A model generated the notes under the pieces. That model worked only from the letters and a program-made list of their open reading frames with translations, ran no database searches and was not told where the DNA came from. 37,829 nt of DNA, taken from NCBI GenBank assembly GCA_903925685.1, contig CAIYGI010000084.1, forward strand, positions 1-37,829. Direction: 5' to 3'. This DNA comes from an uncultured bacterium. GTDB lineage: Bacteria; Verrucomicrobiota; Kiritimatiellia; CAIKKV01; CAIYGI01. Shown here piece by piece: positions 2,658 to 17,930 of this stretch. Position 1 is the first letter of the stretch. Each line of letters opens with the position of its first letter. The translations under genes were made by a program, and so were the position numbers.

Positions 2658-2662
2658 TCGCC

Positions 2663-3745
2663 ATGGGATTTTTTAAACGCCGCAAACTTCGCAAAAACGC
2701 CATCGGGATGCTGCATCACACCCGCGGACTGCGCCGCCTGCGCGAGGATCTTCTGCCGCCTGCGGAGGTCGCCCGCTTGCGCGACATCGAAGGTTCGCTG
2801 ACCGACGCCATTCGCAACGGCGACGAAGAGGCGCTTAACGATGCCTGCGAAAAGGCCAACACGGAGCTGGTTGCGTTGACCCCGGTCAAACCCAACGGCT
2901 GGTTGCGTGAAAATGCCGAGGTTCTGCTTGTGGCCATGGGTATCGCCATGGCCTTTCGCGCCTATGTGGCCCAGCCGTTCAAAATTCCGACCGGCTCCAT
3001 GCAGCCTACGCTTTACGGCATTCATTTTTCGCCGCGGCCTTACCAGGCCTGGCGCGACGCTTATCCGATGCGGCTGGCCAACTGGCTGGTGACCGGCGAA
3101 TGGTACACGCGGTTCGTTTCGCAGGCGTACGGGAAATTGCGCGGGCCGCTGGTCACCGATGGCACATCCTACGTGTACGAGATCGGCGGCGTCAGGCATG
3201 ATGTGCCGCGCAACCTGGCGCTGTTGGTGCGACCTGGCGACAACCTCAGCCCAGGGCAGACACTGGCCGAAGGGGTCAAGATTAACGGCGATCATATTTT
3301 CGTCAACCGTTTGATCTGGAACTTCCGGGCGCCACGGCGCGGCGAGATCATGGTCTTCAGCACGGACGATATCCCGACGCTGGCTGACAAGAAAACGCAC
3401 TATATTAAGCGCATGGTTGGGCTGCCGGGCGAATCGATCTCCATCCAACCCCCGAATTTGGTGGTTAACGGGCATGTTCCTGAAGGGCCGGCTGGGATTC
3501 TGTTCAACCAGCATCGTGAGCCAGGGTACACCGGTTATGGGCTGCCGGCGACACCCGGCGACTATTATCTATCGACGACGAATTCCGTGGCGCGTCTCGG
3601 CCCGGGAGAATACCTGGCCTTTGGCGACAACACGCTGAATAGCGCCGACAGCCGTTACTGGGGCCCGGTCCCGCAGCAAAATCTGGTAGGGCCAGCCATG
3701 CTGATCTACTGGCCGTTCTCCGACCGCTACGGAATCACGCGTTAA
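2663..3745 (+). CDS. lepB: Signal peptidase I with enlarged catalytic domain
   Basis: Membrane serine protease that removes signal peptides from exported proteins. A basic, predicted cytoplasmic N-terminal region of about 85 residues (MGFFKRRKLRKN) precedes one membrane segment (about 86-103). Box B PTGSMQPTL follows, with the nucleophile at Ser112. The general-base Lys is in YIKRMVGLPGES (Lys249), and box E is FGDNTLNSADSRYWGPV. About 130 residues separate Ser and Lys, compared with roughly 55 in E. coli. The extra segment includes a Tyr/Trp-rich stretch (PRPYQAWRDAYPMRL) and a part that reads like a duplicated box C/D element. Total length is 360 residues. The start could be ATG 2663 or GTG 2654, which overlaps the lepA stop; I chose the ATG. 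CACGCG/CGCGTG inverted repeats flank the stop but lack a T tract. Confidence 0.93.
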   Translation: MGFFKRRKLRKNAIGMLHHTRGLRRLREDLLPPAEVARLRDIEGSLTDAIRNGDEEALNDACEKANTELVALTPVKPNGWLRENAEVLLVAMGIAMAFRAYVAQPFKIPTGSMQPTLYGIHFSPRPYQAWRDAYPMRLANWLVTGEWYTRFVSQAYGKLRGPLVTDGTSYVYEIGGVRHDVPRNLALLVRPGDNLSPGQTLAEGVKINGDHIFVNRLIWNFRAPRRGEIMVFSTDDIPTLADKKTHYIKRMVGLPGESISIQPPNLVVNGHVPEGPAGILFNQHREPGYTGYGLPATPGDYYLSTTNSVARLGPGEYLAFGDNTLNSADSRYWGPVPQQNLVGPAMLIYWPFSDRYGITR

Positions 3746-3987
3746 CAATTGCGCGTGTCATTGCGACTGACGTTGAACCACGAGTGCAACTATTCGTCGT
3801 TCGCGCCGGGCGATCGATCCTCGAAATGGCCTTGAATCCATTGGGATATTCATTATCGGCAGTTGTTGCCGACCTATTAACAATGTCGCATAATATATGT
3901 TATGTCTAATACTGAGGTGCAAATAATCAAGCCAGGCTTGCCTGTGGACGAAAAAGGCGAAAAGCATGAGGGGCTTGATGAAGGCCG

Positions 3988-4395
3988 TTAAAGCCAGCCC
4001 TTGCGAATCAATTCATCGGCAAGCGCTGTGGCTGGAACAATCCGCGTGCCTTGAACGATCTTCCCATACAGATGACCGAAATGGCGCTTGTCACCTGTCC
4101 AAAGATGCGAACAACCGGACGCAACGGCGCCGTTCAAAACAGGTTGATCCTTGTCAGGCAGTTGCGAATCCTCGACTATCGTCTGCGCGGTAATGAATTG
4201 AAAGCCGGGTTTCAGTGCCTCAAAGTGTTTGGCCAGGCTTGGCCGCTTGAGTTCGATGTTGCGCCGAGCCTCTTCCCAGACATGCTCGTTGATCACAACC
4301 GTTGCATGGCTGAAAAGCGCCTCCAGCAGAATCCGCGTGGCGCTCGCCGGATCGGCCGCGGAAAAAAGCACGTTGGCGTCGGCAAACACCCTCAT
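3988..4395 (-). CDS. PIN-domain ribonuclease toxin (VapC-type)
   Basis: A 135-residue PIN-domain protein, the usual VapC-family size. Acidic residues expected in the metal-dependent RNase centre are visible: Asp6 in FADANVLFSA, Glu41/42 in VWEEARRN, Asp83 in PDKDQPVL and Asp102 in WTGDKRHFG. Its ATG overlaps the stop of the upstream AbrB-like gene in an ATGA (4392-4395), the typical coupling of antitoxin and toxin. By family knowledge the toxin cleaves tRNA or rRNA and is held inactive by its partner; the specific target cannot be read from sequence. All the acidic positions look intact, so it is probably active. Confidence 0.88.
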   Translation of the reverse strand: MRVFADANVLFSAADPASATRILLEALFSHATVVINEHVWEEARRNIELKRPSLAKHFEALKPGFQFITAQTIVEDSQLPDKDQPVLNGAVASGCSHLWTGDKRHFGHLYGKIVQGTRIVPATALADELIRKGWL

Positions 4396-4625
4396 TTTGC
4401 CCGGCGTTTCAGGTGCTTCCCAAGTTCCGCCTCGGCAGCGTCAAAATCGGCCACCCGGGCATCGGTGTAGATCTCAATCGGAAATGCCACCCCGGGACGC
4501 AACAATATCCCCTGCTCCGAGGTTTCAGCAATGATCCGTCCGCCGTGATCGACGCCAAGCAAACGCCGCATGCTTTTCGGAATCGTCAATGTGCCCCGTG
4601 AATTGAGTTCGAGTATTGCATTCAT
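4392..4625 (-). CDS. AbrB/MazE-fold antitoxin
   Basis: A 77-residue protein whose N-terminal half is a swapped-hairpin AbrB/SpoVT DNA-binding domain: LNSRGTLTIPKSMRRLLGV, then a strand (GGRIIAE) and ILLRP. The C-terminal half (YTDARVADFDAAEAELGKHL) is the likely toxin-wrapping tail. It is the first gene of the pair and overlaps the PIN toxin by four bases. A perfect palindrome sits 18 bases upstream of its start, as expected for autorepression by the antitoxin or the antitoxin-toxin complex. The fold and partner are clear; the name (VapB, MazE or other) is not. Confidence 0.88.
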   Translation of the reverse strand: MNAILELNSRGTLTIPKSMRRLLGVDHGGRIIAETSEQGILLRPGVAFPIEIYTDARVADFDAAEAELGKHLKRRAK

Positions 4626-4642
4626 AAATAAAAGAATACATA

Positions 4643-4669
4643 TTTACTGATATTCAGTAAAGCAGTAAA
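4643..4669 (-). promoter_or_regulatory. Palindromic operator of the toxin-antitoxin pair
   Basis: TTTACTGA (4643-4650), TAT, TCAGTAAA (4654-4661) is a perfect 8-base-arm palindrome directly upstream of the antitoxin gene. A third copy of the half-site (CAGTAAA, 4663-4669) follows eight bases after the second (4655-4661). The region is A/T-rich, unlike its neighbours. AbrB-fold antitoxins usually bind such repeats to repress their own promoter. The binding role is inferred from position and symmetry. Confidence 0.6.
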
Positions 4670-4987
4670 TTACAGCAAATGCTTCCACTCCGCGTCACCT
4701 CCGCAGACCCACACCTGCATCGTCCGTTCGAACTTGAGGCCGACGAGCATCAATTTCGCTGGTGGATACGCCAACCCGATTCGATTGAAGCGCGCGGCCA
4801 GTCGCGCATGCACCAGATCGCCAAACTGGACAACACGGTCCGCGATTGTCTTTTTGCCCTTTGCGGTCTGGATGACCGCCACAACATACCTGCGCAATTG
4901 CGTGCGAAATGGGATTGCGCAGATGCACATGGCCAACAGGATAAGAAGCACCCGGAATCTATAGAGCTTCAATCCTCCACCCTCCAC
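4670..4987 (-). pseudogene. Truncated YafK-like L,D-transpeptidase (N-terminal part only)
   Basis: A 105-codon frame with an N-terminal membrane/signal segment (YRFRVLLILLAMCICAIPF), then TIADRVVQFGDLVHARLAARF, IGLAYPPAKLMLVGLKFERT and MQVWV. This matches the region I know just in front of the YkuD catalytic domain in YafK-type L,D-transpeptidases, which cross-link peptidoglycan or attach proteins to it. The family continues with a YPVLAASG-like segment and an SHGC active site. Here the frame stops after WKHLL, exactly at the edge of the toxin-antitoxin control region, and no YkuD domain follows. The gene is therefore probably broken. The start is unclear: GTG 4987 or TTG 4972, just after a GGTGGAGG tract. 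It lies downstream of the PDZ gene. An alternative is a small intact membrane protein. Confidence 0.65.
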
Positions 4988-5010
4988 CTTCAGCCCCCCA
5001 CCCTCAACCC
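4973..5010 (-). repeat. Purine-rich GGTGGAGGGTGG tract, copy 1
   Basis: On the - strand this reads as tandem GGTGGAGGGTGGAGG-type purine runs between the PDZ gene and the transpeptidase remnant. A similar tract (GGTGGAAGGTGGAGGGTGAA) lies at 27722-27757 between ribE and cls. Both sit just upstream of membrane-protein genes on the - strand and could serve as extended Shine-Dalgarno-like sequence or be a dispersed intergenic repeat. Confidence 0.45.
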
Positions 5011-5013
5011 CTA

Positions 5014-5952
5014 TCAGGGCGCTGCCGGCGCGCCATTGCCGGGGCGGACTTCGTAGATCAGTTTGGCCGGCTGGCCGTTGCGTTGAATGTCGAGGACGAC
5101 GGCGCTCAGTTTGTCGTTGGCGAATTCGCGGATCAGGTAATCGGCGCGCCGGCGATTGTTCATGTTCATGGAGTTGGCTTTTTTAACCACGTCGCCGGCC
5201 TTCAAGCCGATGGCGTCGAAAAAGCCCTTTTCGCCCTCGATCCCGACCGAGTAGCCGGTGATGCGTTTCTCATCGTTGTAGATCGGCTTGAGGGAATCGT
5301 AAACCTTTTGCAGACGCTGCGGCTGGTCCAGAAGTTCCTGGTAGTAATCCATCAACGGCTTGCGCAGCATGACCCAGCGATTGTCCGCGACCATGACGCC
5401 GAAGCGATTCGTCGAAATGCCGACAAGCGTTATGGCGGCGGTTGAATTGGTTTCGCCGACCGAAGCCTCGGCGGACGACGCCAAGCCGCTGAATTCCAGG
5501 CGGATTTCCACGCTGCGATCGGCGATGCGGACTACGACCATATCCGCCCGGATTTCATCGACGCGCACATCTTCCCCGATGACGCTGCCCACCGAAACGA
5601 CATGTTGCAGTTTTTGTGCCAGATCGTCGAGCACGGCCCGGCGTTGGATCACGCCATTGCTGTCCTCCAGCGAAAATGTGCCGGCCAGCCGGAAACGTCC
5701 ATCCCCCGCCAGCCCCCCCACTCCACCGATTACCCGCATCACGCCCCAAACGTCGCCCGTGACGGTTTCCACCGCGAGTTCGGCAGCCAGATCGGCCGCG
5801 CGGTTGGTCTGATTGGCATGAGCGTACGATAGCGGTAATTTCGGAAAATTCCGCCATTGCTGCCAGGCCAGCGCGGCGATCAGCGCGCTCGCCGCCACCA
5901 AGCCCGCGGCGGCAATGGTGGCCAGTTGATTATGTCGGAAGCCGGAAGCCAT
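5014..5952 (-). CDS. Membrane-anchored PDZ protein, GspC-like
   Basis: A protein of about 312 residues with one N-terminal membrane segment (LATIAAAGLVAASALIAALAW), an extended periplasmic region and a C-terminal PDZ-like domain (about 230-303: YSVGIEGEKGFFDAIGLKAGDVV, then a strand/helix pattern ending in LIYEVRPG). This single anchor, mid domain and terminal PDZ is the layout of GspC, the inner-membrane clamp of type II secretion. Pseudopilin genes of such a system lie at 33966-34797. The ATG at 5952 lies inside the 3' end of rnpB and has no visible ribosome-binding site. The frame is open to 5988, but that extension lies wholly in the RNA gene. TTG 5901 is a poorer alternative because it would clip the membrane segment. 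GspC assignment is moderate; a generic PDZ protein is possible. Confidence 0.72.
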   Translation of the reverse strand: MASGFRHNQLATIAAAGLVAASALIAALAWQQWRNFPKLPLSYAHANQTNRAADLAAELAVETVTGDVWGVMRVIGGVGGLAGDGRFRLAGTFSLEDSNGVIQRRAVLDDLAQKLQHVVSVGSVIGEDVRVDEIRADMVVVRIADRSVEIRLEFSGLASSAEASVGETNSTAAITLVGISTNRFGVMVADNRWVMLRKPLMDYYQELLDQPQRLQKVYDSLKPIYNDEKRITGYSVGIEGEKGFFDAIGLKAGDVVKKANSMNMNNRRRADYLIREFANDKLSAVVLDIQRNGQPAKLIYEVRPGNGAPAAP

Positions 5953-6311
5953 AAGCCGGATTTTGTTCCCCTTGCGGGGTGCGGTCATTTATCTCTGCGA
6001 TCTACCCGGAACGGCACGACCCGAAAGCCGTATGAGGCGAGCCGCCTCCCGTTCCCTATTCGATCTTGCTCCGAACGGGGTTTACCATGCGGCGTCCATT
6101 GCTGGCGCGCCCGGTGGTCTCTTGCACCACCTTTTCACCCTTACCCCGGCGGTTGCCCGCCGTGGCGGTATGTTCTCTGTGGCACTTTCCGTCCCGTCCG
6201 CTTTACCGGACGAGCCCGGGCTTATTGGGCCCGGCGTTCCGCCCTGTGGAGTCCGGACTTTCCTCACCGCCACAATGCGGCGCGACCACGGATCTCCCGG
6301 CTCCCGACATC
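5930..6311 (-). ncRNA. rnpB: RNase P RNA, bacterial type A
   Basis: Catalytic RNA that matures tRNA 5' ends. On the - strand the conserved GAGGAAAGTCCGGACT block (about 6246-6261) and the 3' block GCAGAGATAAATGACCGC followed by GGAACAAAATCCGGCTTA are both present, in the right order and distance. The ends are fixed by a perfect 14-bp P1 helix: ATGTCGGGAGCCGG (6310-6297) with CCGGCTTCCGACAT (5945-5932), one G-U pair. Total length is about 380 nt. It has its own promoter, and its 3' strand of P1 overlaps the first codons of the PDZ gene. The zinc-ribbon gene lies upstream on the same strand. Confidence 0.96.
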
Positions 6312-6315
6312 GGCC

Positions 6316-6344
6316 AGTATACCCGTCCGCCTTTTGAAAACCAA
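6316..6344 (-). promoter_or_regulatory. sigma70-type promoter of rnpB
   Basis: On the - strand TTGGTT (6344-6339), a 17-base spacer and TATACT (6321-6316). The predicted start about six bases downstream coincides with the first base of the rnpB P1 helix near 6310, which independently supports the call. Confidence 0.75.
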
Positions 6345-6360
6345 GCGTGTTTGCAATGGA

Positions 6361-7068
6361 TCAGTTTTCGGCTTGCGGCGCCATGTAAACAAACCGTCCG
6401 CAATAACTGCATGCTACAAGTTCCTGACTGCGCCGTGCGGCATGCACCAGGTATGGCGGAAGACGCATGTGGCAGCCGCTGCAGGCGCCGTTCACGATCT
6501 TGACGAGCGCGGCGTCCTTGCGATTATTCATGATGCGGTCATACTTGCGCAGGGTATTGGCGTCGATACCGGCCGTCATGCCATGCCGTTCGGTCTGCAC
6601 GCGCTCCAATTCGGCGGCCACGGCCCTGGCGCGTTCATCGATCCCCTGTACTTCGGCCCGAATCGAATCTTCCTCCGCCTGCAGGGATGCCTCGAGGCGC
6701 TTCACATCTTCGTTGGCTTTTTCGATGGCCTGCATCATTTCGAGCGACGCGTCGTCGGACTTGCGGATGCTGGACTCCAGCAAGGCGATTTCATCGTCCA
6801 CAACCCGGAATTCACGGTTGCTCTTGATGCTTACCTGTTGATCGCGGTGTTTCTTGATCTTCTCGCGTTGGGCGATAACTTCAGCCTCGGCATGCTTGAC
6901 TTCGCTCTGCCGCAGTCGCACTGCTTCACGGGCTTTGGCCAGCGCCTGGCGGTTATCTTCTAAACGCGCTTCGATTTCCTGCTTGCGCGTGGGGAGGTCT
7001 TTTAATTCCCGTTCGAACTTTAGAATCCGGCAGTCTCGTTCCTGAATGGCCGCCAGTTTCTCGATCAT
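6361..7068 (-). CDS. Coiled-coil protein with C4 zinc ribbon (CdsZ/CT398 type)
   Basis: A 235-residue protein with almost continuous heptad-rich coiled coil over residues 1-165 (e.g. QVSIKSNREFRVVDDEIALL, well conserved in the family). It ends in a four-cysteine zinc ribbon: CSGCH (Cys196, Cys199) and CSYCGR (Cys220, Cys223). This is the fold of Helicobacter HP0958 and Chlamydia CT398/CdsZ, proteins linked to flagellar or type III secretion and sigma54/RNA contacts. I chose ATG 7068; the frame also allows GTG 7083. rnpB follows 50 bases downstream with its own promoter. No flagellar or type III genes are in the window, so its role here is open. Family assignment is firm, function is not. Confidence 0.88.
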   Translation of the reverse strand: MIEKLAAIQERDCRILKFERELKDLPTRKQEIEARLEDNRQALAKAREAVRLRQSEVKHAEAEVIAQREKIKKHRDQQVSIKSNREFRVVDDEIALLESSIRKSDDASLEMMQAIEKANEDVKRLEASLQAEEDSIRAEVQGIDERARAVAAELERVQTERHGMTAGIDANTLRKYDRIMNNRKDAALVKIVNGACSGCHMRLPPYLVHAARRSQELVACSYCGRFVYMAPQAEN

Positions 7069-7166
7069 CGCTTTCACCAGCACCTCATTCCACCCCGCAC
7101 AGGGGAAAAGCTAAAAATATCATCCGCCAATCCCGCTGTCAATGCAAAGATTCGAAGAAAAATACC

Positions 7167-7194
7167 TTTACTCCAGCCGCCAATGGCGTAAACT
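7167..7194 (+). promoter_or_regulatory. Possible promoter of tRNA-Pro
   Basis: TTTACT (7167-7172), a 16-base spacer and TAAACT (7189-7194), ending 17 bases before the tRNA 5' end. Matches to the sigma70 consensus are only partial, but the position is right and the flanks are A/T-rich. Confidence 0.35.
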
Positions 7195-7211
7195 CGCCGT
7201 TCTTCCTTATC

Positions 7212-7287
7212 GGGGCGTAGCGCAGTCTGGTAGCGCGTTTGGTTCGGGACCAAAAGGTCGAGGGTTCAAATCCCTCCGCCCCGACCA
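7212..7287 (+). tRNA. tRNA-Pro (anticodon CGG)
   Basis: A complete cloverleaf. The acceptor is CGGGGCG (7212-7218) paired with CGCCCCG (7278-7284). The D arm contains GCGCAGTCTGGTAGCGC. The anticodon stem TTTGG/CCAAA encloses loop TTCGGGA (7244-7250), so the anticodon is CGG (7246-7248), decoding proline CCG. The T arm is GAGGGTTCAAATCCCTC, then discriminator A-CCA. The CCA end is genome-encoded (7285-7287). The dus gene begins within 20 bases. Confidence 0.98.
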
Positions 7288-7304
7288 TTATGTATTTTTC
7301 CGAC

Positions 7305-8318
7305 ATGACACCCTCAACACTCCCACCACCACTCACGCTGCGCGGTAAGTGTTTCGATCCGCCGCTGTTCTGCGCGCCGATGGCGGGAATCACACACAGC
7401 GCCTTCCGGCGCATTCTGGCGGAACACGGCGGTTACGGAGCGCTTTTCACCGAGATGCTTTGCGCCAAGACGATTCTCAAGGAGAATCTGCGCCATTCGC
7501 CATGGCTCAAGCGCAGGCCGGCAGACGGTAAATTGATTTATCAATTGCTGGTCACCGCGACAGCCGGCCTGCCGGAGATGCTCGACCACCTCGCGGAACT
7601 CGCCCCCGACGGAATCGATCTCAACTGCGCCTGCGCGGCCTGGAACGTACGCCAGCAGGGCGGTGGAGCCGCGCTATTCGAGGACGCGCCGCGATTGCGT
7701 GCCGTGCTGCAAACACTGCGCGCCCATTTCTCCGGTCCGCTGCTGGTCAAGATGCGGCTTGGACACAACTCCCCTCTCTGGCGCGAGCGTTTGTACGACC
7801 GGGTGCGTCTGATGGCGGACGAGGGCGTGGACGCGCTGACGCTGCATCCGCGTTTTGCGGAGGACAAGTTCAAGCGCAGCGCGCGCCACGAGATGTATGC
7901 CGAACTGGCGGCGGTCACGGATCTGCCAATCATCGCCAACGGCGACATTTCCGGCCCGGACTATTGCGCGGCGCGGGCGGCGAATTTCGCGCCCGCCGCG
8001 GGTCTGATGCTTGGCCGCATGGCGGCCGGCTGTCCGTGGATTTTCGCGCAATGGCGGGAACCGGCATTGACCGGCAATCCCGCCGAGGTCTGGCCGCGTT
8101 TCGTTGCGGCGATCGAGGAAGATTTTACCCGGCCCGGCCAGGCGCTGGCGCGGGTCAAGATCCTGACCGCCTACCTGGCTCGCAACTACCTGTTCGGCCA
8201 CTTGCTCTTTGCGTCCGTACAGAGCGCTCCTGACATGGCCGCAGCCCGCGACCGCGCTGAACGCTTTTTCGCCAGCCAGCCTGAACGCCACGCCAGGCCG
8301 AGTTTCGAAGGCCTCTAA
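7305..8318 (+). CDS. tRNA-dihydrouridine synthase
   Basis: FMN-dependent enzyme that reduces uridine to dihydrouridine in tRNA D-loops. It is 337 residues, a TIM barrel followed by a helical tail. APMAGITHSAFRR marks the first FMN-binding loop, and YQLL is strand 3. IDLNCACAAWNVRQQGGGAAL carries the catalytic cysteine (Cys110) in a variant of the usual N-x-G-C-P motif (here N-C-A-C-A). VKMRLG, LTLHPR, IANGDI and LMLGRMAAGCPW complete the FMN and phosphate sites. The start is either ATG 7305 or ATG 7290; the latter is three bases after the tRNA CCA end and would give an almost leaderless message after tRNA processing. The family is clear; DusA/B/C subclass is not. It converges on the OmpA gene. 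Confidence 0.93.
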   Translation: MTPSTLPPPLTLRGKCFDPPLFCAPMAGITHSAFRRILAEHGGYGALFTEMLCAKTILKENLRHSPWLKRRPADGKLIYQLLVTATAGLPEMLDHLAELAPDGIDLNCACAAWNVRQQGGGAALFEDAPRLRAVLQTLRAHFSGPLLVKMRLGHNSPLWRERLYDRVRLMADEGVDALTLHPRFAEDKFKRSARHEMYAELAAVTDLPIIANGDISGPDYCAARAANFAPAAGLMLGRMAAGCPWIFAQWREPALTGNPAEVWPRFVAAIEEDFTRPGQALARVKILTAYLARNYLFGHLLFASVQSAPDMAAARDRAERFFASQPERHARPSFEGL

Positions 8319-8340
8319 TCGTCCCGCGAAAGGCGGATTG

Positions 8341-9432
8341 TCACGGGGCCTTCTGCGGAGGACGGATGTGGATCTCTATGCGCCGGTTCTCCGGATTGCC
8401 ATTTACCGGATCGTTTGGCGCCTTCGGACGGGAAAAACCATAGCCGACGGCCGTGAGCCGTTTCCTGGCGATGGCGTGGTTCTTCACGAAGTAATCGCGG
8501 ACCGTCTCCGCCTGTTTTTCGGTCAGTTTCCGTGCCTCGCGATCGGATAGAGCGGGCGTACGATCAATGTGCCCCTCGATCCAGACGTCGGAAGCGGGAT
8601 GCGACTGAATGGCCTTGGCAATGGCGTCGAGTTCCGAAAGGTATTCGGGATGCCAGTGCCCTTCCTCAGCGACAATCAGGTCGAGTTTGAACGACTGCAA
8701 ATCGTCCGACGGCGGCAATACCGGCTTAACCGCGGCCACGGCCGGCGAAGCGACGACGGGCGCCACGGGGGCAGGAACGGCGGCATGCACGCTACTGAGC
8801 TTGGTCGGCGTGTGCGCGCCCCAGGTCCAGACCAAGCCGGCTTCGAACTCGGAATTGGCTTTAAAGGTGTTTTGGTTGCCGACCGGGTAGCCGCGGTAAT
8901 CCAACCGGATGGCCCACTCGTCGTTCAAGTGGTACATCATGCCTCCTCCAAAACGCAACTCCACCAGGGCCGCCGCATTATAAAAGGAGTGTTGATACCA
9001 GTTGTATCCGACGCCCGCGGCCAGGTACGGATCCAGCCGTTCCCAGCGGGTCAAGTGATAGAGCGCATCCACCGCCACGCCGTAGCCCCAGGTGTCATTA
9101 ACGCCACCGTCGTTTCCGCCGGTCTGTTCCCAAAGCTTGTTGATCTTCCGTCCGTCCTCGTACCGGTATTGTCCACGCAGGTTGGGAAGGACGCGGAATT
9201 GGGCGTCGAGCGAAATCCTGTCGGTAAAGTCGTAGCCCACATGCAGGGCGGGGAAACAACCGTCCCGCAGCGGTTGGCCGCCGTCAAAATCGAGGTAGCC
9301 AACGCCGAGACCGAAATAGAGCGGATGCTCGTCGCCTGTTTCAACCGTCTGACTGTGCGCCGTAAAAATCCAAAAGCCCAACAGCGCAGCCACACCCACC
9401 GCCATCATCCGATGCATGTTCGAATGCTTCAT
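8341..9432 (-). CDS. OmpA-like outer-membrane porin with peptidoglycan-binding domain
   Basis: A 363-residue secreted protein. It has a signal peptide (MHRMMAVGVAALLGFWIFTAHSQ), then an eight-strand-type beta barrel of about 190 residues with alternating aromatic strands (YFGLGVGYLDFDGG, YDFTDRISLDAQFRV, PYLAAGVGYNWY, WAIRLDYRGY). An Ala/Pro/Val-rich hinge follows, then an OmpA C-terminal domain (IEGHIDRTPALSDREARKLTEKQ, YFVKNHA, LTAVGYGFSRP, NPENRRIEIHI). The domain binds peptidoglycan by family knowledge. The ATG at 9432 was chosen for the AGGAGG eight bases upstream. It is transcribed away from the TPR-ExbBD-toroid operon and could serve as its Pal/OmpA partner. This last point is inference. 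Confidence 0.9.
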   Translation of the reverse strand: MKHSNMHRMMAVGVAALLGFWIFTAHSQTVETGDEHPLYFGLGVGYLDFDGGQPLRDGCFPALHVGYDFTDRISLDAQFRVLPNLRGQYRYEDGRKINKLWEQTGGNDGGVNDTWGYGVAVDALYHLTRWERLDPYLAAGVGYNWYQHSFYNAAALVELRFGGGMMYHLNDEWAIRLDYRGYPVGNQNTFKANSEFEAGLVWTWGAHTPTKLSSVHAAVPAPVAPVVASPAVAAVKPVLPPSDDLQSFKLDLIVAEEGHWHPEYLSELDAIAKAIQSHPASDVWIEGHIDRTPALSDREARKLTEKQAETVRDYFVKNHAIARKRLTAVGYGFSRPKAPNDPVNGNPENRRIEIHIRPPQKAP

Positions 9433-9761
9433 GAGATCCCTCCTGTTTTTTTTAACCATGAGCCACGCCTGACATTTGCGCCAAGGCGGCGCCCTGCGGA
9501 AAACCGGGAACGATTGTTGCGTTCATCGGCTGGCGCAATCCTATTGAATATGCACGCCACTTGCACGCCGGAAATCGCACACAATAAAACCGCGAATCCG
9601 AACGTCAATATCCCTGGGTGCGGCCATTAATTCTTGCATCACCGGCTCATTGGGACTATAGAAGAAGCTTCCAAGTAATGGCCGGAATGATGACCTTGAT
9701 GTCGCATCGCGCTGTTTCCTGCAAGCCAATTCGATGGATGGATAACCGGAGGAAAGATTCT
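9433..9761. other. Divergent intergenic region between OmpA-like gene and TPR operon
   Basis: I see no gene in these 329 bases. They hold the control regions of two divergent transcription units: the AGGAGG of the OmpA-like gene on the - strand near 9438-9445, a candidate + promoter at 9634-9662, and the GGAGGAAAG ribosome-binding site at 9748-9756. No convincing RNA structure was found. Confidence 0.5.
9634..9662 (+). promoter_or_regulatory. Candidate promoter of the TPR-ExbBD-toroid operon
   Basis: TTGCAT (9634-9639), 17-base spacer, TATAGA (9657-9662), about 100 bases before the TPR start codon. The fit to consensus is partial, so this is tentative. Confidence 0.3.
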
Positions 9762-12700
9762 ATGAAATTCAAGCGCTGGGCCGGGATTTCTTTGGTCGCG
9801 GGCCTTTTCGTTTCGTCGATCCTTCCGGCACGGCTTGGCGCCGGGGAGGACACCAAGGCCGTTGACGACTATAACTTTGCGGCCTGGCTCTACAACAGCG
9901 GCAAATATGCCATGGCCGCGGAGTCGTACCAGGGTTTCCTGAAGAACCATGCCGGCCATGCGAAAGCGCCCGACGCGCGCTTCGGGCTGGGGCAGTCGCT
10001 TTTCCGCCAGGACGCCTTCAAGGAAGCGCTGGAACAATACGAAGCCGTCCGCGCCGAAAATCCCAAATTCGAGCAACTTCCGGAGCTGCTGTTCCAACTT
10101 GGTCAGGCGCGCATCGCGCTGAACCAGTACGCCGAGGCACAGAAGCTTTTTGCGGAGCTGCGCACCCGCTTTCCGGAACATTATCTGGCGGACTGGGCCC
10201 TGGCCCGCGAAGGCGCCTGTTACATCAGTCTGGGCAAACCCAAGGATTCGACGCCTTTGCTGCATAGCTTTCTGGATAAATACGCGCCGCCGGGCGGACC
10301 TGCGGCGAAGGCGCCGGCCACTGTGGAAATGCTGGCCCGCATGGACAAGGCCGGCATCAAGGCCGGCGGCGCTTTTTTGGATCTGGTGGAGCGCAGCGCG
10401 TTCTATGCGGCATTGGCGCAGTTCAATCAGGAGCAGTTCGCGGACGCCAGGAAATCGTTCCAGACCTTTCTGGACCGCTACCCGGACAGCAAACTGAAGC
10501 AGGAATCGAGATTCCGGCAGGCCCAGGCCCTTTACCGGCAGGACGCATTCCTCGAAGCGGCCGCGTCCTACGAGTCCGTGATCGAAGCTAAGTGCGAGTT
10601 TTCCGAGGCGGCCGCATTCGAACGGGCGCTGGCGCTGCACAAGGCTGGCAAGCTTAAGGACGCCGCGGCGGCCTTTGCGGAAATGGCCGGGCGTTATCCG
10701 GATAGCGCGAAAGGACCCAAAGCCCGTTTGTATTCCGGAACGCTGCTGTTCGACGCGGGCGACTATGCCGGCGCGATGGACCGGCTCAAACCGATGGCGG
10801 ACGCGAAAAAAGAGCTCGCGGACGAAGCCGCGTATTGGGTCTGCATGAGTCTCTTGAAGTCCGGCCGGAACGCCGATGCGGAACAGCGCTTTGTCGATGC
10901 CATGCAGACCTTTCCAAAGTCCGCGCTGCTTGGCGACATGCAACTGGGGCTGGCGGATGCGCGGCTGGCCCTCAACAAGCACGAGGCCGCGGCCCAAGCC
11001 TTCCTTGACTATGCAAAAAACGGCGGCCAGGCAGCTCAGGTTCCGCGCGCCATGTATTCCGCCGCCGTGGCGCTGCACCGGGCCGAAAAATACGCGCCGT
11101 CGGACGAGGTCTGCGCCGAGTTCATGAAGACCCAGTCACGCAGCGATCTGGCTCCGCAGGTCCTCTTTCTGAGCGCCGAAAACCGTTTTCTCCAGAAGGA
11201 CTACGAACGCGCGGCGGCGCAGTACAAGGAATTTCTGGACCTCAAAGACGCCCCGGCAGACCTCGCGGCGCGTACGCATTTCCGGCTCGGCTGGATTCAC
11301 CGGTACGCCAAGCGCTACGAGCGCGCGCTGGAAGAATTGACCCTGGTGGACGACTCGGCCGCGGGAAAGACGGTTGCGGGCGAGGTCGGTTACCTAAAGG
11401 GTGTCTGTTATTTCGAACTGAAGAAATATCCCGAGGCAGCCCTGGCTTTCAATGCCTATTTGCAGGGCGGCGATACCGCGCGATTTGGCGACGATGCGCT
11501 GCTCAAGCTGGCCGTCGCCAAATCGAAACAAAATCGACCCAAAGAGGCGATGGAGTCGTTTGAACGTCTGCTTCGCGACTACCCGAAGAGCGATTTGCTG
11601 CCGCAGGCCCGGTACCAGCTGGCGGAATGCTGCTACGATCTGAAGCAGTACGGCAAGGCCATCGAAAACTACCGGAAGGTGGCGGACCGGCAACCGCCGG
11701 ACGAACTCGCCCCCTATGCCCTCTTCGGCATCGCCTTGTGCCGCTTTGAAGCCGGCGAATGGAAGGCGGCGGCGGAAAGTTTCGGACAGGTCGCCGACGA
11801 CGGCAAAAACCCCGAACTTATCCCGCAGGCTTTTTACCGCAAGGGCTCCAGCCTGATGAAGCTATCGAAGTGGGAGGAAGCGGAGTCGGCATACCGCACG
11901 CTGTTGAAATTGTTCCCGAAGCATGAGTTGGCGCGGGCGTCCATGATGCTGATCGGCACCTGCCTGCAGGAACGGAAGCAATGGGCCGAGGCCGCCGCGG
12001 TTTTCCAGTCGGTGATCTCCGATTATGCGCCTGACAAAGACCAGGCACGGATGTTCTACGAATTGGGCTGGTCCTGGCGCGAGGCTGGCAAGGATTCGGA
12101 ATCGCTGGAGGCCTTTCGTAAACTGGCCGACTCATTCCCCAACGATCCGCTGGCGGGCGATGCGCTGTTCTATATGGCCGAGGCGAAGTACAAAGAACCA
12201 GCCTCGCCCGTAACGGCGGAGGCGGCCGCGAAACGGCTGGACGCCGCCCGCGAGATGTACGGAAAGGTCCTAGCCCGCTCCAAGGACAAGCGTCTGGCCG
12301 ACAAATCCATCTACCGCATCGGCTGGTGCTGCTGGCAGACCGGCAAGTACAAGGAGGCGGCGGAAGCATTCGACAGGCTCTGTCATGAATATGGCGACAG
12401 CGAACTGGTTCCCGACGCGCTGTTCCAGGCCGGCCTGTCATTTGCCAAGGCCGCTGACCAGCAACACGCCATGGAGCGCTACGAAACGCTGCTGGGGAAT
12501 TCGAAATACGCGGGCTTCAAGTACCTGCCTGAAGCCGCCCTCGGACTGGGCGAGGCCAAGCTGGCGGCCGGCCAGCCGGCGGCTGCCGCGAAGATATTCA
12601 GCGCCTGGCTTGCGAAGAACGAGAAGCATCCCGCCGCGGCACAGGCGCAGTTCCTCGCCGGCCGGGCACATTACGACCTCAAGGAATACGATGCGGCGCT

Positions 12701-12998
12701 GGAAAGTTTTGGCCGCGTGCCGGGGCTTACGCGCTCCGACCTGGCCGCGCAGGCGCAGTTCTACGTCGGACAGGTACTACAGGCGCGCGGGAATTTCAAA
12801 GACGCGGCGCTCGCCTATCTTCGCGTCCAGGCGCTGTACCCGGATGCACGGGAGTGGGTCGCCGCGGCGATCTTCGAGAGCGGCACCTGCAGCGAAGCGC
12901 TCGGTAACAAGGAAGAAGCGTTCAAGGCTTACCGGGAAGTTACGGAAAAGTACAAGGGTACAAAGTGGGCGGAGTTGGCGGCGGGAAGGCTTAAATAG
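9762..12998 (+). CDS. Giant secreted TPR-repeat protein
   Basis: A 1078-residue protein with a signal peptide (MKFKRWAGISLVAGLFVSSILPARLGA). The rest is a tandem array of TPR-like helical hairpins, roughly 25 by eye, with recurring A-x-x-x-Y and F-x-x-Y/F-P positions (AAESYQGFLKNHAGH, ARKSFQTFLDRYPDS, AMESFERLLRDYPKS, AIENYRKV, AYRTLLKLFPKH). It belongs to the periplasmic TPR/CpoB (YbgF)-like class that scaffolds envelope complexes. ATG 9762 was chosen for the GGAGGAAAG just upstream. It is first in an operon with ExbB (14 bases downstream), ExbD and the toroid protein, so it probably acts as a periplasmic scaffold for the channel. No enzymatic motif was seen. Confidence 0.88.
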   Translation: MKFKRWAGISLVAGLFVSSILPARLGAGEDTKAVDDYNFAAWLYNSGKYAMAAESYQGFLKNHAGHAKAPDARFGLGQSLFRQDAFKEALEQYEAVRAENPKFEQLPELLFQLGQARIALNQYAEAQKLFAELRTRFPEHYLADWALAREGACYISLGKPKDSTPLLHSFLDKYAPPGGPAAKAPATVEMLARMDKAGIKAGGAFLDLVERSAFYAALAQFNQEQFADARKSFQTFLDRYPDSKLKQESRFRQAQALYRQDAFLEAAASYESVIEAKCEFSEAAAFERALALHKAGKLKDAAAAFAEMAGRYPDSAKGPKARLYSGTLLFDAGDYAGAMDRLKPMADAKKELADEAAYWVCMSLLKSGRNADAEQRFVDAMQTFPKSALLGDMQLGLADARLALNKHEAAAQAFLDYAKNGGQAAQVPRAMYSAAVALHRAEKYAPSDEVCAEFMKTQSRSDLAPQVLFLSAENRFLQKDYERAAAQYKEFLDLKDAPADLAARTHFRLGWIHRYAKRYERALEELTLVDDSAAGKTVAGEVGYLKGVCYFELKKYPEAALAFNAYLQGGDTARFGDDALLKLAVAKSKQNRPKEAMESFERLLRDYPKSDLLPQARYQLAECCYDLKQYGKAIENYRKVADRQPPDELAPYALFGIALCRFEAGEWKAAAESFGQVADDGKNPELIPQAFYRKGSSLMKLSKWEEAESAYRTLLKLFPKHELARASMMLIGTCLQERKQWAEAAAVFQSVISDYAPDKDQARMFYELGWSWREAGKDSESLEAFRKLADSFPNDPLAGDALFYMAEAKYKEPASPVTAEAAAKRLDAAREMYGKVLARSKDKRLADKSIYRIGWCCWQTGKYKEAAEAFDRLCHEYGDSELVPDALFQAGLSFAKAADQQHAMERYETLLGNSKYAGFKYLPEAALGLGEAKLAAGQPAAAAKIFSAWLAKNEKHPAAAQAQFLAGRAHYDLKEYDAALESFGRVPGLTRSDLAAQAQFYVGQVLQARGNFKDAALAYLRVQALYPDAREWVAAAIFESGTCSEALGNKEEAFKAYREVTEKYKGTKWAELAAGRLK

Positions 12999-13012
12999 GA
13001 AGGAACGGATTC

Positions 13013-13801
13013 ATGATCAAGCGCTGGTTGGTGTGGTGCGGTGTGGCGGCAGTTGGTCTCGCTTTGTGCATGCTTGTTGAGGCGCAGAGTCTGGCGGCCA
13101 TTTCGCCGCCGGCAAACCTGCCCGCGGCCCAGCCGCCGGCCGATGCCAGGGGCGGCCATACCCTTTTGGAACTTCTTGAAAGGGGCGGCGTCGTGATGTA
13201 CCCCCTGTATGTCTGCAGTATTCTGATGGTGGCTTTCGGGATCGAGCGGGCCATCACGCTGCGGCGCCGCAAGGTGATTCCCACGGCGATCATGCGACGG
13301 ATCAAGGCGGCATCCGCTTCCGGCGATCCCGAGATCCGGCGGCGCCTGATGGACGAGATTCAGTCCGACGACAGTCCCATGGGCAGAATTTTCAAGGCTG
13401 GGCTTCGGCGGCTGGACCGACCGGTTCTGGAACTGGAAAAGGCCATCGAAGACGCGGGCGCGCGTGAGGCGGCGCGGCTGCAGCGGAACAACAAGGTGCT
13501 TTCCAGCGTGGCGAGCATCGCACCGTTGCTGGGCCTGCTGGGCACGGTGACTGGACTGATGCGCTCGTTCATGACGGTGGCGTCGAGCTCGGACGCGCTG
13601 GGACGGACGGAACTGCTGGCCGCCGGAATCTATGAGGCGCTGGTGGCGACGGCCGTGGGACTGTCGATCGCCATTCCCTCGATGGCTCTGTATTTCTATT
13701 TTCAGGAGCGGGTGGACAAACTCGTGGGCGATATTGACGACGTGGCGGTGGATCTCATGGAAAACTTGTTCGCCGAGGCCAAGCCCGGAGAGGCGCGATG
13801 A
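13013..13801 (+). CDS. MotA/TolQ/ExbB-family proton channel subunit
   Basis: A 262-residue inner-membrane protein. A signal-like N-terminus (MIKRWLVWCGVAAVGLALCMLVEAQ) is followed by a periplasmic stretch and then the three family membrane helices: VMYPLYVCSILMVAFGIER, SVASIAPLLGLLGTVTGLM and ALVATAVGLSIAIPSMALYF. The large cytoplasmic loop between helices 1 and 2 (RRLDRPVLELEKAIEDAGA) is typical. APLLGLLGTVTGLM and the helix-3 Thr (ATAVGLSIAIP) line the proton path in ExbB/TolQ. The extra N-terminal signal segment is seen in several planctomycete/verrucomicrobial ExbB proteins. It overlaps exbD by four bases (ATGA at 13798-13801), supporting stoichiometric expression. The symbol exbB would be reasonable, but the paralogue type is unclear. 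Confidence 0.93.
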   Translation: MIKRWLVWCGVAAVGLALCMLVEAQSLAAISPPANLPAAQPPADARGGHTLLELLERGGVVMYPLYVCSILMVAFGIERAITLRRRKVIPTAIMRRIKAASASGDPEIRRRLMDEIQSDDSPMGRIFKAGLRRLDRPVLELEKAIEDAGAREAARLQRNNKVLSSVASIAPLLGLLGTVTGLMRSFMTVASSSDALGRTELLAAGIYEALVATAVGLSIAIPSMALYFYFQERVDKLVGDIDDVAVDLMENLFAEAKPGEAR

Positions 13802-14211
13802 ACATCAAGCGTCCGACGCAGGAGTTCTTCGGGGTCAACGTGATTCCGATGATCGACACAATGATGTTCCTGCTCATTTTCTTCATGATGGCGACCAAGT
13901 TCGCCGACGTCGAGCGCGACGTTCGCGTCCATCCCCCATCGAGCCGTGACGCACGGCCGATCACGGAGGCCCCGCGGGAAATCGTGGTCAACGTTACCAG
14001 CGGCGGCGCCTTCATGATCGCTGGCAATCAGCGCAGCCTGGAGGAAATTGACAGCCTGCTGGCCTCGGCCGTCAAGGAAGACCCGCATCAGACCGTTGTG
14101 ATCAGGGGCGACCGCGAGACCATCCTGCAGTTTGCGGTCAACATCCTGGATCTCTGTGAAAAACACGGTGTCGAGCACACCTATCTTACGACTCGCAAGC
14201 TCGACACGTAA
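13798..14211 (+). CDS. ExbD/TolR-family proton channel subunit
   Basis: A 137-residue protein with one membrane helix starting at VNVIPMIDTMMFLLIFFMMAT. Asp20 is the family's essential proton-carrying aspartate. The periplasmic part (IVVNVTSGGAFMIAGNQRS, VVIRGDRETILQFAVNILDLC) has the ExbD/TolR fold, with the usual DxxxxxxxV-DxC pattern. Its start overlaps the ExbB stop, and the toroid gene follows 14 bases after its stop. With ExbB it should form a proton-driven rotary or pumping motor in the inner membrane. The load is expected to be the protein encoded next, since no TonB or TolA gene is in the operon. Confidence 0.93.
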   Translation: MNIKRPTQEFFGVNVIPMIDTMMFLLIFFMMATKFADVERDVRVHPPSSRDARPITEAPREIVVNVTSGGAFMIAGNQRSLEEIDSLLASAVKEDPHQTVVIRGDRETILQFAVNILDLCEKHGVEHTYLTTRKLDT

Positions 14212-14225
14212 GGAAACGCCATCCA

Positions 14226-17200
14226 GTGCTCACGATTTTTCTTGCCCTTGCCATCGCCGCGCTCTTGATGGCCGCCTTGCTGAATCGCCGCCACAGGCCC
14301 CAGCTTCTGACCACCTGCCTGGCTCTCAGCATCGTCCTGCATTTGCTTTCCCTGTCCATTTTCAGCATCGTGCACATGCAGGCGGGCAAGGCGGACGAGA
14401 AAGCCCCTGTAATGCCTGGCGCGCGCAAGTTCGAAGTTGGCTCTTACGCGGTGCGGGAATCCCGGATGAGCCGCAGCATCCGCACCGAGGCGCTGAAAAC
14501 CGAGACGGTGGACGCGCATTCCAGTCTGGATACGGTCCGGACCGCCAAACGCGAACCGATCAAGAATGCACCTGCCAGGGCGCAGGCGGAGTTGCGGGAA
14601 GGCGACGTGCGAACCGCGGGGCGCGTGGCACTCAAAACTCCGGATATTGTCCCGCCGAAGCAATCCCTGGCCGAACCTCTGGATGCAGTGCCGGATCGTC
14701 CAATAGAGGCATCGCCGCTGCCGATTGTGGCCGCACTACAGTCCCGTTCTGCCACGAAGGCTGAACAGACGGACACCGGCGAGCGAAGCAAGACCTTCGA
14801 TGTTGCGCAAGCCGCGCAGGCCACCCCGACGCAACCAAATGAAAAACCGAACGCACCGCTGAAGCTTGGCTCGCAAGCGCCGGCGCGCGCATCGATAACG
14901 CTGGCCGCCGCCCCGGCGGCGCGCCAACAGGAAGTCGGCGAAGCGCTTCAGCCCGTGCATACCGGGGAAACACTGGACCGCCTGGCAGACCGCGCCGTGC
15001 AAATCGATAAACCACGCGTTCCGGCAAGCGATGAGCGCACTGCCGGAATCGGAGCTGGCGGCTCAGGCGTGAAGCTTGGAAAGCGCGCCGGCGCTACTCC
15101 GCAACCCGGCGGAAGGCGCATGGCGGCGGTGCAACCAGTCGGCCGTGCTAGGCTGGTTCCTGAGAGTCTCGCTGCGGAAAGTCCAGGCAGTATCGAAAGA
15201 CGGAAGAACGAGGTCGGGGGATATTCCCCCGACGCCGTGGGAGTTGCGAGCCGTTTGGCGCCGATCCGGTTGAACGATGCGCACCCGCTGGTTGCGGGTG
15301 CGCACGCAGGTACGCCTGGCCCGTTTGCAACCCGAAGCGATAATCTTGAATGGGCGTCCTTAAAGGAAAACTCCATTGTGCCAGACGGCCTTGAGTCGGC
15401 CGACGGTAAACCACGGGCGCTGGTCTTGGATATCGCACCATCTAAAGAATCTAAAGATCCATCGCGCATCGGGCTGGGCGGCGGAGCGCTTGCCGGGCTG
15501 TCGTCCCAAGCACCCTCTGTCCGTGACAGTGTTTCAGTTCTGCCCGGGGAAAGTTCCGGTTTGGGCGCATTAAAGGATCGCGGTCCAGCCATATCGATGG
15601 CCATGGTCCCAAATGATCGGAAGGAGCCCGGGCCTGCCGCAAACCAACCTGGCCCGTCCGAGTTGACTGCTGCAAAACGGGGCGGCGGTTTGGGAGACGG
15701 CCAGTCGGCTGCGGTACGCGTCAGTCCTGCGAGGGACTTTTTCGCCGGCAGCAAGACGGCGGGTGCAGGTTCAGGGACCCTGGTTCAAGGTTCTGGCATA
15801 GGGTTTCAGCCAAGAGCGCAGGCCGGCGGCGGATCGGACGAAAAACTGGCGGGGGTGCAGGCTGGCGTGGTTAACCAGGCCGGCCTTGGCTTGACGGACA
15901 TCGGTTCGCCTGTAAAGTCCGTAAGCTCCGCGTCGCAAGGGGCTTCGAATGGCGGGGGGCAGGGAATTCAACCTGTTGCGCTGGCCATCGGAAAGAAGAG
16001 ACGGTCGGGTGCGTCGGCCGTGGCCGCGGGTGGTGACGGCGTCACCGGCGTGGCGCGTCCGTCGCCAACAGGGCGTTCCGCTCCGCGGGCGGGCTACGGT
16101 TCTTTCGTTGGGAGTAATGCAGGTGGCGCCGGATCACCTTCTGAAAGCACGGCCATCCGGGAATTTGAGCAAGTTGGGGCCGCTGGGGCGCTGACGATCG
16201 CGGATGGTGGGGCCAAGGATTTGGCCGGGCGGATGAATGTTGAGCGATATCCCGGGACGCCGGCGCCGCATGGCGCAGGCGGATATGGCGGGGGCGCGGG
16301 AGGACAGTCTGAACTATTTCCCGGGAAGGCTGGCGGCGGAGTCGCCGCCGATACAGACGGCGCGCTCCAACGTTTTCAAGCGCCGGGTGGCTCTGCAGGC
16401 GGCGCGCCGGCCGCATCGGTGGGAAAGATGTTGATTTCAGCCGGACTTCAACCGGAAGGTCCTGCAACGGCATCAGGAAAAGCTGGAAAGGAGTTGCTGG
16501 CGGCGATGAACACATCCGCCAGCAGCGCGGATTCGATCGGGCTCGCGATCATGGCGTCAACGGCGTCAACGCTGGCTCAGCCATCGTCTGGAGTAGAAAC
16601 CGGGCTCGCCCCTGCGCAAAGCCTACAGGTCGGCAAGGCCAATGGAGGCGACCCGACAGCGACAAGCCGCATGGGCGGCGGCGGTCTCGGCGACATGGCC
16701 AAGATGGTTGGCGCCGGCGCCGGCGAACGTAATCCCAGCCGGATGGAGGTGCATCTGAATGCGGTGCAGTCCAAGGCGCGGGAGACAGCCGACATTTCCA
16801 TGGCGGGGCCGGGCAAGGAGGCTCTTCGTACATTCCTGACGGTGGGCAATGCGCCAAACCCCGCCTTCGTACCGCAAAAAGCCATTTACCAGATGCGCAA
16901 GCCCGAGAAGCGCAGGCAATTCATCAAGGAGTTGGGCGGTACGAAGCAGACCGAGGAAGCTGTCGAGAAGGCCTTGGCATGGCTTGGCAGCGCGCAAAGC
17001 GATGATGGGCGCTGGGACGTTGACGGCTTCAAGACTCTCAAGGAATGCGGCGGGGCCGGCGATCTGGTCAACGAAGATATGGTTGTGACCGGCATGTCGC
17101 TGCTGACCTATCTGGGCGCCGGTTACACGCATATTGAAGGCGAGCACAAGGAGACGGTCCGTAAAGGTCTCGATTGGCTGCTGAACTGCGAGAAGGAGAA

Positions 17201-17930
17201 CGGCGACTTCCGCGGCGCCGGCCAGATGTACGGCCAGGCAATCGCGACCGCGGTGCTTTGCGAGTCATATTCACTGACAGGCGACAAGCGCCTGCTGGCG
17301 CCGGCCCGGCGCGCGGTTCAGTTCATTGTTAAATCCCAAACGGCGGAATCCGGCTGGCGCTATGCGCCGCGCGATGAAAATGACACCTCCGTCACCGGAT
17401 GGCAGATCCTCGCGCTGAAAAGCGCGCAAATTGCCGGGATCGAGGTGCCGGAACAAACCTTCAAGTGGACAAAATTGTGGTTGGACAAGGTGCGGCAAGG
17501 GCATGCAGGCGGGCTTTATTCCTACAAGGTCGGGCATGTCGTAACTCCGGTTATGACAGCAGAGGGCGCGTTCTGCCAACTGTTCACCGGGGCGCGGACG
17601 AAGACTCCAGAAACCGTCGAATCCATCGCCTTTCTCATGAACAATCAGCCGGCCTGGGACCCGCGCAACCGCTCGGTCAACATGTATTACTGGTACTATG
17701 CCACCCTGGCGATATACCTCTCCGGTGCGCAGGAATTCGAGGCCTGGAACGCGGCGCTGACCAAGGCCCTGCTGAAGGGACGCAACACGTCCGGTCCGGC
17801 GGCGGGAAGTTGGGACCCGGTTGACCAGCTTGGTCCCCGCGGCGGGCGCATTTACTCGACCGCGATCGGCGCGTTGTGTCTGGAAGTCTACTACCGCTTC
17901 CTGCCGCTCTATAAACAGAAATCCTTGTGA
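14226..17930 (+). CDS. Membrane-anchored protein with long disordered linker and C-terminal alpha/alpha toroid (prenyltransferase/squalene-oxidase repeat)
   Basis: A 1234-residue protein with a GTG start and AAGGAAAC upstream. Two N-terminal membrane helices (MLTIFLALAIAALLMAALLN and TCLALSIVLHLLSLSIFSIV) flank a basic loop (RRHRPQ), which places the rest in the periplasm. Residues about 55-850 are low-complexity, rich in Ala, Gly, Pro and Ser, and probably unfolded. Residues about 905-1234 form a helical-repeat domain (TEEAVEKALAWLGSAQSDDGRWD, VRKGLDWLLNCEKENGDF, AVQFIVKSQTAESGWRYAP, VTGWQILALKSAQ, MYYWYYATLAIYL) of the squalene-cyclase/prenyltransferase alpha/alpha-barrel type. No DXDD cyclase motif was seen, so it may bind rather than catalyse. 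It is last in the ExbBD operon and occupies the TonB/TolA position. Function unknown. Confidence 0.88.
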   Translation: MLTIFLALAIAALLMAALLNRRHRPQLLTTCLALSIVLHLLSLSIFSIVHMQAGKADEKAPVMPGARKFEVGSYAVRESRMSRSIRTEALKTETVDAHSSLDTVRTAKREPIKNAPARAQAELREGDVRTAGRVALKTPDIVPPKQSLAEPLDAVPDRPIEASPLPIVAALQSRSATKAEQTDTGERSKTFDVAQAAQATPTQPNEKPNAPLKLGSQAPARASITLAAAPAARQQEVGEALQPVHTGETLDRLADRAVQIDKPRVPASDERTAGIGAGGSGVKLGKRAGATPQPGGRRMAAVQPVGRARLVPESLAAESPGSIERRKNEVGGYSPDAVGVASRLAPIRLNDAHPLVAGAHAGTPGPFATRSDNLEWASLKENSIVPDGLESADGKPRALVLDIAPSKESKDPSRIGLGGGALAGLSSQAPSVRDSVSVLPGESSGLGALKDRGPAISMAMVPNDRKEPGPAANQPGPSELTAAKRGGGLGDGQSAAVRVSPARDFFAGSKTAGAGSGTLVQGSGIGFQPRAQAGGGSDEKLAGVQAGVVNQAGLGLTDIGSPVKSVSSASQGASNGGGQGIQPVALAIGKKRRSGASAVAAGGDGVTGVARPSPTGRSAPRAGYGSFVGSNAGGAGSPSESTAIREFEQVGAAGALTIADGGAKDLAGRMNVERYPGTPAPHGAGGYGGGAGGQSELFPGKAGGGVAADTDGALQRFQAPGGSAGGAPAASVGKMLISAGLQPEGPATASGKAGKELLAAMNTSASSADSIGLAIMASTASTLAQPSSGVETGLAPAQSLQVGKANGGDPTATSRMGGGGLGDMAKMVGAGAGERNPSRMEVHLNAVQSKARETADISMAGPGKEALRTFLTVGNAPNPAFVPQKAIYQMRKPEKRRQFIKELGGTKQTEEAVEKALAWLGSAQSDDGRWDVDGFKTLKECGGAGDLVNEDMVVTGMSLLTYLGAGYTHIEGEHKETVRKGLDWLLNCEKENGDFRGAGQMYGQAIATAVLCESYSLTGDKRLLAPARRAVQFIVKSQTAESGWRYAPRDENDTSVTGWQILALKSAQIAGIEVPEQTFKWTKLWLDKVRQGHAGGLYSYKVGHVVTPVMTAEGAFCQLFTGARTKTPETVESIAFLMNNQPAWDPRNRSVNMYYWYYATLAIYLSGAQEFEAWNAALTKALLKGRNTSGPAAGSWDPVDQLGPRGGRIYSTAIGALCLEVYYRFLPLYKQKSL

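Follow-up and report, generated by a model that had tools for sequence, protein, structure and literature searches.

The operon and its motor subunits

The window (the whole stretch of 37,829 nucleotides that was analysed, from an uncultured bacterium of the Kiritimatiellia) contains four consecutive genes on the plus strand, separated by 14, -4 and 14 bases. The first (9762-12998) encodes a secreted TPR protein of 1078 residues (TPR_6, 2.8e-67), the second (13013-13801) an ExbB/TolQ-type motor subunit of 262 residues (MotA_ExbB, 2.4e-31), the third (13798-14211) an ExbD/TolR-type motor subunit of 137 residues (ExbD, 2.7e-23) and the fourth (14226-17930, GTG start) a protein of 1234 residues whose C-terminal domain, a toroid, matches SQHop_cyclase_C in Pfam (1.1e-6 with the domain alone as query). 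Divergently encoded at 8341-9459 on the minus strand is a beta-barrel with a C-terminal OmpA (peptidoglycan-binding) domain, which matches OmpA and OMP_b-brl. These gene calls and Pfam families agree with those proposed in an earlier note made from the letters of the sequence, both for the four co-oriented genes and for the barrel. Purine-rich sequences resembling ribosome-binding sites were read by eye upstream of the TPR, ExbB and toroid starts, and scans for sigma-70 promoters and terminators gave signals near background. The barrel gene is flanked by a tRNA-Pro and a dihydrouridine synthase gene (7211-8318, plus strand). Elsewhere in the window, an LptD-type protein (34834-37164, minus strand; PF04453, 9.4e-9) is consistent with an outer membrane bearing LPS.

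The TPR protein has a Sec-type signal peptide and no lipobox, and is classed as a secreted protein and not as a lipoprotein. The tol_pal_ybgF model matches it at 1e-108 over 12 stretches, a value that mostly reflects its TPR content. The earlier note had compared this giant protein with CpoB, and its repeats are CpoB/YbgF-like.

The window ExbB aligns with solved TolQ and ExbB, and the window ExbD with solved ExbD and TolR. The pore residues Thr178 and Thr213 of ExbB are invariant in all 67 homologues from related loci, the kink residue Pro222 is kept in 65 of them and Ser69 of TM1, which would face the TonB/TolA helix, in 61. The proton-binding Asp20 of ExbD (codon 13855-13857) is aligned to the transmembrane aspartate of ExbD/TolR. 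The retention of channel residues claimed before, namely this aspartate and the GLLGTVTG helix of ExbB, is confirmed. The tryptophan of TolQ/ExbB that contacts the histidine of TonB/TolA, four residues past Ser69, is not conserved, and Val73 stands there in the window ExbB; the roles of these contact residues are taken from PMC12215075. Judged from family homology, the pore threonines and the transmembrane aspartate, the pair is an ExbB/TolQ and ExbD/TolR proton motor.

Membrane anchor, linker and toroid tip of the fourth protein

The fourth protein starts with a first transmembrane helix (residues 1-19, 14226-14282), followed by the positive loop NRRHRPQ and by a second helix, TM2 (about residues 28-50, 14307-14375), which reads LALSIVLHLLSLSIF and holds Ser35-X3-His39 (codons 14328-14330 and 14340-14342). 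TonB and TolA have the same Ser-X3-His spacing (Ser16/His20 and Ser18/His22, respectively), and cryo-EM structures show these residues touching ExbB/TolQ (PMC12215075). Since the RRHR loop between both helices is positive, the positive-inside rule places the linker and the toroid in the periplasm. By this topology and by its length, the linker is predicted to lie in the periplasm together with the toroid and to be long enough to cross it. By its Ser-X3-His, TM2 would be a docking helix of the TonB/TolA type.

The docking motif was scanned in 97 family members, each with at least 60 residues ahead of the toroid. Ser/Thr-X3-His lies inside a transmembrane helix in 71 of the 97, with 1-13 for other spacings in the same scan, and the motif is present in 67 of the 74 proteins of at least 600 residues; these counts come from related sequences and hence are not independent. 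A stronger point than the raw counts is the specificity for a single spacing across members that are only ~40% identical. Motif-positive proteins vary in length, linker and accessory domains. The long proteins without the motif mostly begin at a contig end; L104 (Ala-X3-His), L119/L121 and L048-L050, a clade of three members, are among the true exceptions. Of the short-form relatives, many have the motif (GPTGSVILH) and several have lost it. Toroid clades with adjacent ExbBD that lack Ser-X3-His (L048-L050, L058) indicate that the toroid can persist without the motif. L119 and L121 (6611-11056) encode proteins of 1481 residues that have PD40 repeats and two separate stretches matching toroid-type models; they sit in a TPR-ExbB-ExbD operon but lack a transmembrane helix with Ser-X3-His, and look like a differently built version of the same machine. 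A strand-like motif is also enriched past the transmembrane helix, at the place of the TolA motor box (35 of 64 de-duplicated members fit the strict pattern there, versus 4-5 elsewhere in the linker), although the copy in the window departs from that pattern.

The linker (residues 51-880, 14376-16865) is of low complexity. Its ~825 residues from 56 to 880 are rich in Gly, Ala and Pro, with 17 aromatics and no Cys, and a simple charge-hydropathy index gives by itself no call of disorder. Over these residues the identity to the congener G001 is 77%, compared with 97% for the toroid; such divergence beside a well-kept toroid fits what is expected of a tether. The longest linker observed, of ~1220 residues, belongs to a Kiritimatiellae transducer (L064, 5840-11053), and the shortest forms have ~90.

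The C-terminal domain (residues 881-1234, 16866-17927) was modelled with 87 aligned relatives as an all-helical domain of 354 residues with about twelve main helices (pLDDT 90.1, pTM 0.92). The layout anticipated in the earlier note (membrane anchors, a long disordered span and a folded C-terminal toroid) is therefore seen here as two transmembrane helices, a low-complexity span and a well-modelled toroid. The Foldseek neighbours of the model are type II terpene cyclases, GH76 mannanases, sugar epimerases and complement C3/C4, with TM-scores of ~0.5-0.6 and identities of 11-17%, so that the toroid appears as a distinct branch of the superfold. PF13243 is matched weakly but consistently, by 85 of the 87 family members. 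A PDB search with the single toroid sequence gave only E > 0.1, and profile and fold searches were needed instead. From profile matches and model together, the domain is confidently predicted to be an alpha/alpha toroid that belongs to the terpene-cyclase superfold and differs from the tips of TonB and TolA. Profile searches gave no TonB_C, TonB_2 or VWA match on the protein, and its membership of the TonB/TolA family by descent was discarded on the absence of a TonB_C/TolA C-terminal domain and on the toroid nature of its tip. Membership of the squalene-hopene cyclase family was also rejected, as the toroid scores 20-31 bits with NCBIfam cyclase models whose cut-offs are 323-851.

In the model, the N-termini of the inner helices (taken as alternate helices) are better conserved than the outer ones (p 0.002), a pattern that points to a pocket kept for a ligand or a partner. 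Glu133, Asp173, Tyr122, Tyr166 and Tyr274/277/278 are invariant. These features, and the predominance of enzymes (terpene cyclases, GH76 mannanases, sugar epimerases) among the fold neighbours, would also suit an enzyme tethered to the motor, acting on a periplasmic glycan or lipid and repositioned or activated by ExbBD. This explanation seems unlikely, however: no known catalytic family scores above its NCBIfam cut-off, non-catalytic toroids (complement C3d, C4) are fold neighbours as well, and a binding pocket would show the same conservation.

Distribution of the module and its neighbours

Toroid relatives are present in 52 of the 58 nearest genomes. Most of them are of a short form (~500 residues), often accompanied by two ExbDs, and the distribution of the long form seen in the window is patchier; a tight search (E <= 1e-50) detected the window-type toroid in only 3 of 115 genomes from across the window's phylum. 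Among 77 toroid genes with enough upstream sequence, ExbD lies just upstream in 69 and ExbB in 61. The TPR gene was detected in 22 of the 37 loci with still longer upstream sequence, a lower bound given the divergence of this repeat protein. The loci compared were picked by similarity of the toroid, not of ExbBD. The order TPR-ExbB-ExbD-toroid recurs in Kiritimatiellota, in bins labelled Verrucomicrobia/Lentisphaerae, in Planctomycetota (Phycisphaerae, Pirellulales, Thermoguttaceae, a Gimesia and a bin labelled Kuenenia) and in Sumerlaeota. The earlier note had regarded a gene order found in no relative as fatal to its proposal; the order is kept in many relatives and in other phyla. The toroid tree joins the window to a Kiritimatiellae bin and related bins in one supported clade. 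Transducers of Phycisphaerae and of some Kiritimatiellia carry PD40 propeller repeats, the repeat type found in TolB, ahead of the pair of transmembrane helices. In L042, L052, L057 and L058, from genomes of the Kiritimatiellota class, a gene that is by its sequence a putative MutL follows the short toroid gene.

Most genomes of the class have one OmpA-domain barrel of the kind encoded beside the operon. A second copy occurs in 6 of the 7 genomes with a window-type toroid, near the operon in five of them, and in 1 of the 51 others (Fisher p ~1e-6, relatedness of genomes ignored). The barrel may be divergent upstream or convergent downstream of the operon. In the congener G001, the barrel and the TPR gene are on separate contigs and other genes lie upstream (L157, 5467-7882), so the junction is unstable within the genus. 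No OmpA barrel was found beside the operon in the Planctomycetota loci, which rules it out as a universal partner and leaves it as a candidate outer-membrane partner for the window's branch, not as a general one.

Neighbourhood clustering revealed no fifth gene conserved family-wide. The remaining large clusters, none of which has a family label, resemble antisense or compositional artefacts and were set aside. The TPR gene is thus the sole other gene kept beside ExbBD and the toroid, and its product is secreted and not a lipoprotein. Both points would agree with a toroid that acts with the TPR protein only, inside the periplasm and with no outer-membrane contact, for instance by timing peptidoglycan or envelope remodelling like CpoB. 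Such a restricted role is nevertheless considered quite improbable, because linkers of up to ~1200 residues look built to span or search a distance and because the OmpA barrel accompanies one branch.

Known systems and the proposed machine

The same genome encodes other motors and transducers. TonB (contig 100) adjoins a TonB-dependent receptor, and TolA (contig 103) adjoins TolB, Pal and a TatA-like gene; neither has ExbBD directly beside it or is linked to the window ExbBD. The statement that no TonB or TolA is present consequently holds for the window but not for the genome. A TonB or TolA clearly paired with the window ExbBD had been named as evidence against the proposal; both lie away from it, one beside the receptor and the other beside TolB-Pal, and there is therefore no pairing by position, though some functional cross-talk may occur. 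The genome has six ExbB genes including that of the window; one belongs to a TolQ/TolR-like pair that stands alone on contig 301, and another adjoins a TPR gene on contig 153. The idea that the main role of the window ExbBD is to energise the TonB or TolA encoded elsewhere, with the toroid protein merely co-transcribed, draws on the lack of adjacent ExbBD at both genes and on the partial interchangeability of Ton and Tol motors (PMC12215075), but it is very improbable, since in several phyla ExbD is followed by the toroid gene, which has its own docking motif, and five other ExbB genes, including the unlinked TolQ/TolR-like pair, are available.

Further loci of related design were observed in this genome. 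On contig 180 (L143, 1-1600, minus strand), ExbB-ExbD-ExbD is accompanied by the first part of a short-form toroid protein, truncated where the contig stops, whose transmembrane helix has Phe in place of the docking His (SSVLF). Contig 114 (L144, ~1529-7069) holds ExbB-ExbD-TPR and a VWA_3 protein with Ser-X3-His, and contig 230 (L142, ~3438-10565) holds TPR-ExbB-ExbD-ExbD and a protein, likely of vWA type, that contains the MIDAS-like motif DVSKS and of which a single-sequence fold reached only pLDDT 41. Contig 114 is a locus of the vWA-transducer type and contig 230 probably another.

This type was described by Williams-Jones et al. (2025; PMC12204202) as vWA-tipped force transducers of unknown function with an SHLS motif, encoded behind TPR-tolQ-tolR-tolR in the PVC group. 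The gene order that characterises it, TPR-tolQ-tolR(-tolR)-transducer, is also that of the toroid operon, and both families share a TPR protein, TolQ-like and TolR-like subunits and a transducer made of an SHLS-type transmembrane helix, a disordered linker and a globular C-terminal domain. They differ in the tip (a vWA fold versus an alpha/alpha toroid), in the linker (~100 residues versus ~830 in the window), in the number of transmembrane helices (one versus two) and in the copies of ExbD/TolR (tolR-tolR versus one in the window form). Compared with SHLS, the window TM2 has Phe46 instead of Leu and His50 instead of the last Ser.

With TonB-ExbB-ExbD and TolA-TolQ-TolR, the toroid operon shares homologous motor subunits with the pore Thr and Asp, Ser-X3-His in the transducer helix, the succession of membrane helix, linker and globular tip, a CpoB-like TPR protein and, in relatives, a PD40 domain as in TolB; it differs in its toroid tip, which has no TonB_C/TolA similarity. 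The operon does not constitute a Tol-Pal system: the tolQ-tolR-tolA-tolB-pal set is lacking, no TolB or Pal gene occurs in it, and the genome has a separate TolA-TolB-Pal cluster on contig 103 as well as TonB. With the squalene-hopene cyclase/prenyltransferase toroid superfamily (PF13243, PF00432) it shares the fold (TM-scores ~0.6) and a weak, consistent similarity, whereas the window form is a single toroid of 354 residues that is anchored in the membrane and encoded with a motor.

The main text of PMC12204202 contains none of the words toroid, squalene, prenyl- and terpen-. No toroid transducer was described in the openly accessible literature searched on ExbB/ExbD with prenyltransferase, squalene, TPR or Planctomycetes, where TonB, TolA and the 2025 vWA family are the only tips described as pulled by ExbBD-type motors. 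The novelty attributed to this effector accordingly stands for the toroid tip, which appears to be new within the searchable literature, and falls for the chassis, since vWA transducers on TPR-ExbB-ExbD had already been published.

Gene order, motor residues, docking motif, charge-based topology and predicted fold argue for the Tol/TonB-like machine first proposed, and the family-wide Ser-X3-His of TM2, absent from that proposal, strengthens it. The divergence of the linker beside a kept toroid, the PD40 propeller fused to many members, the enriched strand-like motif and the published vWA transducers speak for it as well. Against it count the missing contact tryptophan of ExbB, the departures of TM2 from SHLS, the imperfect motor-box copy of the window, the toroid clades with no Ser-X3-His and the lack of a family-wide partner other than the TPR protein. 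The operon would thus probably encode a proton-driven trans-envelope machine of the Ton/Tol type, composed of a motor, a docked toroid transducer, a TPR co-factor and a partner on the outer-membrane side. We infer complex formation, force transmission and such a partner as follows. ExbB and ExbD would form the inner-membrane motor, and the toroid protein, like TonB and TolA, would use the Ser-His face of TM2 to dock against the exterior of ExbB. The long flexible linker would span the periplasm, the C-terminal toroid would bind a partner located at the outer membrane or close to it, and motor cycles would pull or release this partner. The secreted TPR protein is a probable periplasmic co-factor in the manner of CpoB, and in the window's subgroup the OmpA-domain barrel would be the best candidate for the outer-membrane end.

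The toroid protein is best named a variant of the ExbBD-driven transducer, outside TonB/TolA by descent of its tip. More tentatively, and with somewhat less than even confidence, Planctomycetota, Kiritimatiellota and their neighbours may possess a further class of energised trans-envelope machine parallel to Tol-Pal. Its parts would be a TolQR-like motor, a toroid-tipped TolA-like transducer (often fused to a PD40 propeller of the TolB type), a TPR protein that resembles a giant CpoB and, for one branch, a tether formed by the OmpA barrel; the machine would coexist with true Tol and Ton systems and serve a separate target. A toroid tip on a shared chassis, spread over the Planctomycetota and their relatives, would show that the motor helix and the linker are a general adaptor for interchangeable tips. 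The little-understood envelope of the PVC group would gain a concrete, testable machine, in which the docking motif already names two residues to mutate.
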